Shown in pieces: positions 8,729-31,316 of a stretch of DNA of 34,722 nucleotides; position 1 is the first letter of the stretch, and the number at the start of each line of letters is the position of its first letter. The position numbers and the translations under genes are program-made. The notes beneath the pieces were generated by a model that did no database searches, had not been told where the DNA came from, and saw only the letters and a program-made list of their open reading frames with translations. The stretch is from Candidatus Parcubacteria bacterium (lineage in GTDB: Bacteria > Patescibacteriota > Minisyncoccia > UBA9983). The stretch is from assembly GCA_003599625.1 (NCBI GenBank), contig QZIU01000010.1, positions 1-34,722 of the forward strand. The letters run 5' to 3'.

Positions 8729-9604
8729 TTGACGATGACGACACGATCGATCACGTCCATCACAGAAGGACAGAAGAAGCAGTACAAGCGGTTCGTCGAA
8801 GATGCCGCCGAGCGCGCGCTCAGGGACACGGGTCTCGACAAGGACGGCATCCAGAAGCTCATCGAGAACGGTGACGAGTTCCAAGCTCGCATCATCACCG
8901 GCATCAAGGAGCTCTCGGTGTCCAACCAGTTCGCCGACGAGGAAGTCGAGTCGAGCTACGCGTATCCCAAGGGCTACAAGGTCAAGGGGATCACGGAGCA
9001 GACCAACATCCTGCGCCAGCTCTTCCCGGGCATCGGCTTCGCCGATGAGAAGCTGGCCGAACAGCCGCTTCCGCCGAACGCCGAAGGATGGTTCGCCATC
9101 CCGAAGTGGCAGACGCTCGCGCCGACGTATGGCGAAGCGGTCGAGAAGGTTCTCGCGATGATCGCGTCGAAGCGGAAGTTCTACAACTACCGTGACGGCC
9201 AGCTCGGAGCGGAGTACCTGCGACAGCACGCCAAGACGGTGAAGATGTTCCAGAAGCTCGGCGACGAGCAGAAGGATCACGACATCCTCGTCGTTCCGGC
9301 CCAGTTCGGTCTCAGGCACCGCGGTCGTTCGGTTCGCCGGGCACGTGAGGTCTTCACGGCCAACGAGTTCGGCCTCGGTGCCTTCGCAATCGGCATCATG
9401 TTGCTGACCCACCCCGAACGCGAGGTTCAGTGGGAACAGCTTCACGTCGACTGCGCTGGTGACGAGTTCTCTCCGGGCGCCGATGGCGACTTCTCGGGCG
9501 CGCCGATCTTCGACTTCCGCGTCGGCAGGGTCGAGTTCGACGCCGGCTGGGGCGACCGCGCCAACGAGTACTACGGTTCCGCTTCGGCCTTCGTCTCGCA
9601 GTAA
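8729..9604 (+). CDS. Hypothetical protein, GC-rich codon usage (291 aa)
   Basis: RBS aaaggagg just upstream; GC-rich third positions unlike neighbours; no family recognised. Confidence 0.8.
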   Translation: MTMTTRSITSITEGQKKQYKRFVEDAAERALRDTGLDKDGIQKLIENGDEFQARIITGIKELSVSNQFADEEVESSYAYPKGYKVKGITEQTNILRQLFPGIGFADEKLAEQPLPPNAEGWFAIPKWQTLAPTYGEAVEKVLAMIASKRKFYNYRDGQLGAEYLRQHAKTVKMFQKLGDEQKDHDILVVPAQFGLRHRGRSVRRAREVFTANEFGLGAFAIGIMLLTHPEREVQWEQLHVDCAGDEFSPGADGDFSGAPIFDFRVGRVEFDAGWGDRANEYYGSASAFVSQ

Positions 9605-9877: not shown

Positions 9878-9922
9878 AAAATCTTACCACATAATTGCGA
9901 TCGCAACCAAGTGGTAACATTT
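9878..9922. repeat. 45-bp structured repeat, copy 1
   Basis: aaaatcttaccacataattgcgatcgcaaccaagtggtaacattt, identical to 10525-10569; outer stem aaatSttaccac/gtggtaacattt, inner ttgcgatcgcaa. Confidence 0.95.
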
Positions 9923-9945
9923 TAAATTGGTGAAGTATAAAACTT

Positions 9946-10497
9946 TCAATAAAATCCAAACTTCAATTCGAATTGTTCCTGATTTGTAAAATAATCAACG
10001 GTTAAAAATTTTACATATCTTCTTATCTTAAAAACCTCGATAATAAAATTGATCTCATCTTCGCAAGGATAAGGAAATATAAAAAGGCTTTTCTGAAACT
10101 CTCTAAAACCAAGCTTTTTTAATTTTATTCTTAAGGCTTCTCTCGCCAGTTTTTTCTTTTCCGGAATATCAAAAGTCACCATTCTCCACTTTCCATCCCA
10201 TTTTTCCGGAATATTGACATGCATATCATTTAATTTATAAAGGAGGGCTTTCTCTTCCCCCTCTTTAGTAAGAACTATTTCAATTGTTCCATCCTCCCTT
10301 TCTTTGTAAGTTACCAGTCTTTTTGTGTAAAATTCTTTAACAATTCTTAAGAGGCGCTCTTTTTTGATGTTTTTCCAATCGTCTATTGTCGCTTCCAAGA
10401 CTTTGAAATATCCCCTCGGAGAACGAGACATTCCCAAACAAAATCCGGCAAGCAAACCTAAAAGAATTTTTTGCTTTAATTCACTCTTTATAACCAT
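9946..10497 (-). CDS. PaaX C-terminal/Cas2-like domain protein with N-terminal winged-helix-like region
   Basis: KWDGKWRMVTFDIPEKKKLAREALRIKLKKLGFREFQKSLFIFPYPCEDEINFI resembles PaaX-C/Cas2-like proteins; N-terminal half looks like a transcriptional-regulator HTH. Confidence 0.7.
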   Translation of the reverse strand: MVIKSELKQKILLGLLAGFCLGMSRSPRGYFKVLEATIDDWKNIKKERLLRIVKEFYTKRLVTYKEREDGTIEIVLTKEGEEKALLYKLNDMHVNIPEKWDGKWRMVTFDIPEKKKLAREALRIKLKKLGFREFQKSLFIFPYPCEDEINFIIEVFKIRRYVKFLTVDYFTNQEQFELKFGFY

Positions 10498-10524
10498 GGA
10501 AATATTGGTGATGAACCCACCACC

Positions 10525-10569
10525 AAAATCTTACCACATAATTGCGATCGCAACCAAGTGGTAACATTT
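10525..10569. repeat. 45-bp structured repeat, copy 2
   Basis: Identical to 9878-9922, same orientation. Confidence 0.95.
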
Positions 10570-22246: not shown

Positions 22247-22290
22247 AAATCTGACCAGATAATTGCTATCGCAATCCAATGGTCAGATTT
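22247..22290. repeat. Diverged third copy of the 45-bp structured repeat
   Basis: aaatctgaccagataattgctatcgcaatccaatggtcagattt; 36/44 ungapped identity to copies 1 and 2, with a perfect 11-bp outer stem. Confidence 0.85.
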
Positions 22291-22299
22291 TTCAAAAAT

Positions 22300-22345
22300 A
22301 AAATGTTACCGAAAATATGCTCCAGCTTAAAAACGGTAACATTTT
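22300..22345. repeat. Hairpin, perfect 12-bp stem aaaatgttaccg/cggtaacatttt
   Basis: Stem resembles the outer stem of the 45-bp repeat (…gtaacattt); could act as a terminator. Confidence 0.7.
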
Positions 22346-31265: not shown

Positions 31266-31316
31266 ATAAAAAAGCTTCCTTAACTTTGCGGTCGCAAAAT
31301 GAAGGAAGCTTTTTTT
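31266..31316. terminator. Bidirectional terminator-like hairpin at the gyrB 3' side
   Basis: aaaaaagcttcctt…tttgcggtcgcaaa…aaggaagcttttttt. Confidence 0.75.

Follow-up and report, generated by a model that had tools for sequence, protein, structure and literature searches.

The Cas2-like gene and its flanking repeats

The window, by which we mean the whole stretch of DNA analysed, comprises 34,722 nt of contig QZIU01000010.1 from Candidatus Parcubacteria bacterium (GCA_003599625.1). It contains a gene that lies between two palindromic repeats next to dnaE, as well as three further palindromes of the same design that the original prediction had missed.

9878..9922 (44-bp unit 9879-9922), no strand: palindromic repeat, gene-downstream copy; 100% identical to the other copy, matched by model R1 at 48.4 bits
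9946..10497, minus strand: gene for a 183-aa winged-helix and Cas2/PaaX_M protein (ORF, Pfam, structure model, residue conservation)
10525..10569 (44-bp unit 10526-10569), no strand: palindromic repeat, gene-upstream copy, between the gene and dnaE (identity and palindrome model)
22247..22290, no strand: solo palindrome of the window gene's family (AAATCTGACCAGATAATTGCTATCGCAATCCAATGGTCAGATTT), intergenic (palindrome scan)
22301..22344, no strand: solo palindrome of the family that flanks a paralogous gene on contig C21 (core GCTCCAGC), adjoining the 22247-22290 unit (palindrome scan)
31270..31313, no strand: solo palindrome of the common layout with different arms (AAAAGCTTCCTTAACTTTGCGGTCGCAAAATGAAGGAAGCTTTT), no matching gene identified (palindrome model)

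The original prediction of identical 45-bp repeats on both sides of the 183-aa gene is confirmed, and the two copies have the same (direct) orientation. A 34-bp pattern derived from them (≤ 3 mismatches) has two matches in the window and none in shuffled sequences. The copies are also self-complementary, as had been proposed, each being an imperfect palindrome with outer arms AAAT[C/G]TTACCAC/GTGGTAACATTT and the core TTGCGATCGCAA. The GC content of the element is 33% versus 45% for the whole window, which places it in the lowest 1% of windows. Between rnhB and this low-GC element lies an ORF of 62% GC (8729-9601), which has no Pfam match and no counterpart at the rnhB-dnaE junction of relatives.

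The protein is composed of an N-terminal winged helix-turn-helix (residues about 1-92) and a C-terminal Cas2/PaaX_M domain (about 97-175). Pfam PaaX_M (PF20803) matches it with 82.8 bits (gathering threshold 24, E = 1.8e-23) and matches 91 of 91 aligned homologs at E ≤ 0.001. Scores for Pfam Cas2 (PF09827; 17.7 versus a cut-off of 23.8) and for TIGR02277, which represents full-length PaaX (30.8 versus 264.55 bits), are below threshold, and a sequence search of the PDB with the single protein gave chance matches only. The best full-length match of an AlphaFold2 model (91 homologs, pLDDT 87) is Escherichia coli PaaX, followed by CRISPR Cas2. The protein shares the winged helix and the Cas2-like (PaaX_M) domain with PaaX regulators but is much shorter (183 versus about 300 residues) and lacks the PaaX C-terminal region.

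Trp100, Asp101, Trp104, Arg105, Phe109, Asp110, Arg119, Gln135, Ser137 and Pro142 are 96-100% conserved in 128 Patescibacterial proteins, across which the winged helix is variable. Asp110, Arg119 and Gln135-x-Ser137 (97-100%) are the counterparts of the Cas2 signature: as in CRISPR Cas2 and VapD, the fold is ferredoxin-like, with an Asp ending strand 1, an Arg in helix 1 and Q-x-S in the turn between strands 2 and 3. Bacillaceae PaaX differs in having Thr, Asn or Ser in place of Asp110 and no Gln135, and the eight Bacillaceae PaaX genes found in the homolog search have no such flanking repeats. Mutational work on Cas2 and VapD proteins reportedly shows that the equivalent Asp is important for catalysis, and a slight impairment was seen when Gln-Tyr-Ser of a Cas2 was mutated (PMC10491678). 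Since the signature is retained and this Asp matters in Cas2 and VapD, nuclease activity of the Patescibacterial protein is plausible. Cas2-type aspartates can, however, persist without in vivo nuclease function, which counts against a catalytic reading.

In CRISPR adaptation, Cas2 is one of the core proteins. Unlike CRISPR Cas2, the window family is fused to a winged helix and is not linked to cas1, a gene that is above cut-off in four of 55 relatives; the idea of a CRISPR remnant was rejected because cas1 is rare in relatives and not linked. The earlier statement that the window contains no cas1 holds. The one cas1 match of the genome is partial and lies at the end of another contig (G000:C17:20442-20786); the genome may carry a CRISPR-Cas locus.

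Linkage and symmetry of the palindromes in relatives

Homologs of the window gene were found in 33 of 55 related genomes, with up to 13 in one 0.5-Mb genome, and phylum-wide in 90 of 287 genomes. The original prediction had proposed checking whether homologs carry flanking repeats. Most do, with palindromes of their own: in 75% of the 126 homologous loci for which both flanks are available, the upstream flank matches the downstream one (score ≥ 36). Flanks mispaired between loci matched in 0.5% of cases, and windows displaced by 900 bp in 0 of 250. Of 27 later loci, unused in any tuning, 20 matched, versus 0 of 702 mispairings; the protein profile for these loci was built on the earlier ones, of which one or two of the 27 may be near-copies. 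The pairing of palindrome and gene is general among homologs. Local duplication or chance is rejected by the mispaired, shifted-window and later-locus controls. Classical terminal inverted repeats were likewise rejected, since the flanking copies are direct in 59, inverted in 24 and undecidable in 43 of the 126 loci. A phage origin (no phage matches; one IMG/VR locus, which lacks the repeats) and a plasmid origin (the plasmid matches are PaaX-type proteins of Streptomyces and Glutamicibacter) were rejected as well. Beyond the methyltransferase-like gene that neighbours locus L003 there is a third copy of the L003 palindrome (L003:3123-3159), as if a second gene were bracketed.

When the units are aligned on their centres, a common layout emerges: an 8-bp core, a variable spacer and outer arms located 12-18 bp from the centre. 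The core is mostly RCKATMGY and commonly contains CGATCG (GCGATCGC, ACGATCGT, GCTATAGC), and the outer arms vary from gene to gene, in register and covarying. Arm positions pair at 79% at shift 0 and at about 24-33% when slid by 1-5 bases, the absolute value of 79% being inflated because units were picked partly for arm pairing. In 30 sequences, both sides change in 14 of 15 pairs, and each of the 11 outer-arm pairs shows compensatory changes; the covariation score is 0.79, whereas shuffled sequences give 0.19 and slid versions 0.10-0.17. Agreement between the two copies of a locus is 81% in the arms, 95% in the core and 76% in the spacer. In comparisons across loci, arms are similar only where the winged helices are closely related; correlation of the arms with overall protein distance is weak except among close homologs, whereas the similarity of the cores follows that of the proteins (Mantel rho 0.23-0.26, 0 of 500 permutations).

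These data make it exceedingly improbable that the palindromes are ordinary terminators or operators near a PaaX-family gene, paired by a local duplication. Hairpins are numerous in AT-rich genomes and chance duplication can yield two-copy repeats, but the family-wide controls, the covariation and the dispersed identical copies (see below) exclude this explanation. The symmetry also bears on an RNA-level system, in which a ribonuclease resembling Cas2/VapD would cut or bind the palindromes as transcribed hairpins, be they terminators, processing sites or an RNA antitoxin. All units can be folded as hairpins, the four central bases could form the loop, many solo copies follow genes, and on the gene strand there is a slight excess of G-T pairs (23) over A-C pairs (12; p = 0.09). 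However, the arm symmetry is exact and free of register slips, as a DNA dyad would show, and the two flanking copies may face the same way or opposite ways. Some copies are moreover located between divergent genes or upstream of the gene, and Rfam has no known RNA family matching the palindromes. We regard an RNA-level system as improbable.

Solo copies of the palindromes

The palindrome scan of the window's own genome covered ∼ 820 kb of 906 kb. Two paralogs of the window gene (56% and 35% identical) likewise lie between palindromes, and the sequence of each pair is different. Solo copies of these gene-linked families were found near gltX and rpiB, inside miaB, inside truB, beside obg and at 22247-22344 of the window; the names of the neighbouring genes are our reading of translated frames, not database matches. 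A fourth family (AAGTTTACAC...GCTATAGC; L210:10182, L176:5832 and L207:2128), one copy of which lies inside comEC, is an orphan, as no cognate gene was found in the genome.

Among the relatives, covariance-model matches occur in 23 of 33 gene-bearing versus four of 22 gene-free genomes (Fisher p = 2e-4), an association that is partly built in because the model was partly trained on gene-flanking copies. Gene number and number of palindrome matches per genome show a rank correlation of 0.70, where the counts include both strands. Four genomes (G005, G011, G030 and G041) have palindrome-model matches without a detected gene, which may be orphans left after gene loss or may reflect assembly gaps. 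In genome G020, an identical 44-bp sequence is present at five unrelated sites (L247-L251), and a sixth copy (L252) deviates from it by a single difference. The inner part of these copies equals the palindromes that flank the gene of G020 (L019), and the solo copies of G032 match the flanks of that genome's own genes. By eye, no target-site duplication was recognised at the G020 copies, and the dnaE locus is too diverged for a clean empty-site comparison.

Several solo sites are orthologous between sister genomes (miaB, 5' of rpiB, truB and another site in G008, G010 and G004). Five of the six comparisons between them give arm identities of 0.35-0.6, with G008 and G010 reaching 0.9, and most of these solos resemble gene flanks of their own genome at 0.75-1.0. 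Over 34 solos, similarity to own-genome gene flanks exceeds that to flanks of other genomes (Wilcoxon p = 4e-5, the solos not being independent); the G020 solos scored low in this comparison because the L019 flanks are cut by a contig end and absent from the set. Some solos, e.g. of G004 and G001c, match no flank among those compared. A clean insertion in truB was rejected, the net difference being about +5 residues. With respect to neighbouring genes, 14 solos are convergent, 21 tandem, four divergent, seven intragenic and six unresolved.

The behaviour of the solo sites has to be weighed against a DNA-binding regulator or chromosome-organising protein, that is, a PaaX-like repressor that autoregulates via its flanking palindromes, with the solos as regulon or architectural sites that track changes in DNA specificity. 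The winged helix, PaaX as the closest full-length structural match and an upstream copy that is often near the promoter are consistent with this, as are solo sites that persist at orthologous positions with arms changing toward the gene of their own genome; persistence across genera would suit functional binding sites. Nevertheless, we consider such a regulator rather unlikely. In most loci a second copy lies downstream of the gene; solos separate convergent genes more often than divergent ones, and several are within coding regions, unlike a regulon; five identical 44-bp copies including the spacers exceed the needs of an operator; and the Cas2 motif residues are kept, although they are missing from Bacillaceae PaaX. 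The same placement weakens the paired operators of an autoregulated gene that had originally been offered as one interpretation.

The other interpretation, a mobile or REP-like cassette, is partly supported. Its REP-like side fits well, as homologs have flanking palindromes and related solo copies occur, but the whole gene unit is at most putatively mobile. No two paralogs of a genome exceed 75% identity, and the unit beside dnaE seems to have been inherited vertically, so there is no sign that the unit as a whole has moved recently. Upstream of dnaE in genome G004, locus L158 (G004:C5) consists of the decayed start of a Cas2-like gene and one remaining palindrome.

A possible counterpart of REP/RAYT systems

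REPtrons are characterized by a gene between palindromes, further copies dispersed in the genome and co-evolution of protein and repeat (PMC8266576, PMC2817692). The system described here resembles REP/RAYT (TnpA-REP, 'REPtron') in the bracketed gene, the dispersed copies and the joint evolution of protein and repeat. It differs in the protein, which is a winged-helix and Cas2-fold protein without a conserved HUH (Y1) motif (H-hydrophobic-H occurs in three of 136 proteins, and the alignment has no conserved His column). The repeats are 44 bp long with a conserved core, and inspection of the flanks, without a formal count, revealed no GTAG/CGTC tag beside the stems. There are roughly 5-16 sites in the best palindrome-bearing genomes versus > 100 for REP/RAYT, and a genome has several paralogs that each have a palindrome of their own.

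At the level of sequence, the linkage, the symmetric covarying design, the dispersal (five identical copies) and the matching of arms to the own genome at several orthologous sites are established. Our preferred explanation, to which we give about an even chance, is a two-part system similar to REP/RAYT: a dimeric protein with a Cas2 fold would recognise its cognate 44-bp palindromes, spread them and make them uniform. The homodimer would most likely bind the palindrome as duplex DNA, because the design is symmetric and in register and the orientation is not fixed. A two-part code is suggested by the coincidence of variable arms with a variable winged helix and of a conserved core with a conserved Cas2 domain: the winged helices would recognise the outer arms, which lie 12-18 bp from the dyad, while the Cas2-like domains would sit over the core, where the retained Asp/Arg/Gln-Ser site would nick or cut. 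By analogy to REP/RAYT, which employs a different enzyme, we speculate that other copies would then serve as repair templates, or a copy would be captured at a new site, so that the palindromes spread and become uniform; spread and conversion are suggested by the identical dispersed copies and the within-genome matching of arms, as in REP/RAYT. Stable functional binding sites would also explain the solo sites shared with the sister genome (miaB, truB and near rpiB).

More tentatively, and with somewhat less confidence than in the system itself, we suggest that these proteins may form a CRISPR-independent class of Cas2-fold enzymes that read long symmetric DNA palindromes through a bipartite code of variable arms and conserved core and copy or convert these genome-wide, the specificity diversifying after each duplication. 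To our knowledge, the activity of Cas2 outside CRISPR is poorly understood. If true, the class would be the equivalent of REP/RAYT with a Cas2 fold and might serve as a model for the way in which the handling of palindromic repeats by Cas2 arose. Confirmation would mean that Patescibacteria, tiny and mostly uncultured bacteria whose genomes are very small, have a system for repeat spreading or homing that is built on a Cas2 fold. The Cas2-fold proteins here have natural, countable and covarying DNA partners, roughly a hundred of which are aligned, so that the target code is readable and testable. No description of such a protein-repeat system or of the palindromes was found in the searchable open-access literature (subscription journals and preprints being outside its scope), and the Cas2-like gene with its dispersed palindromes looks like an undescribed protein-plus-DNA-repeat system.

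The system would also account for a class of palindromes some of which lie within housekeeping genes. Rickettsia palindromic elements are short palindromes in frame within protein genes; the palindromes described here are likewise found in frame inside protein genes but, unlike those elements, have a cognate gene that is bracketed by its palindrome. The palindrome in the linker of miaB is in frame in both L178:12021-12064 (G000:C6) and L143:1854-1897 (G001:C7), with different arms, and palindromic sequence is present in this linker in more distant relatives too.
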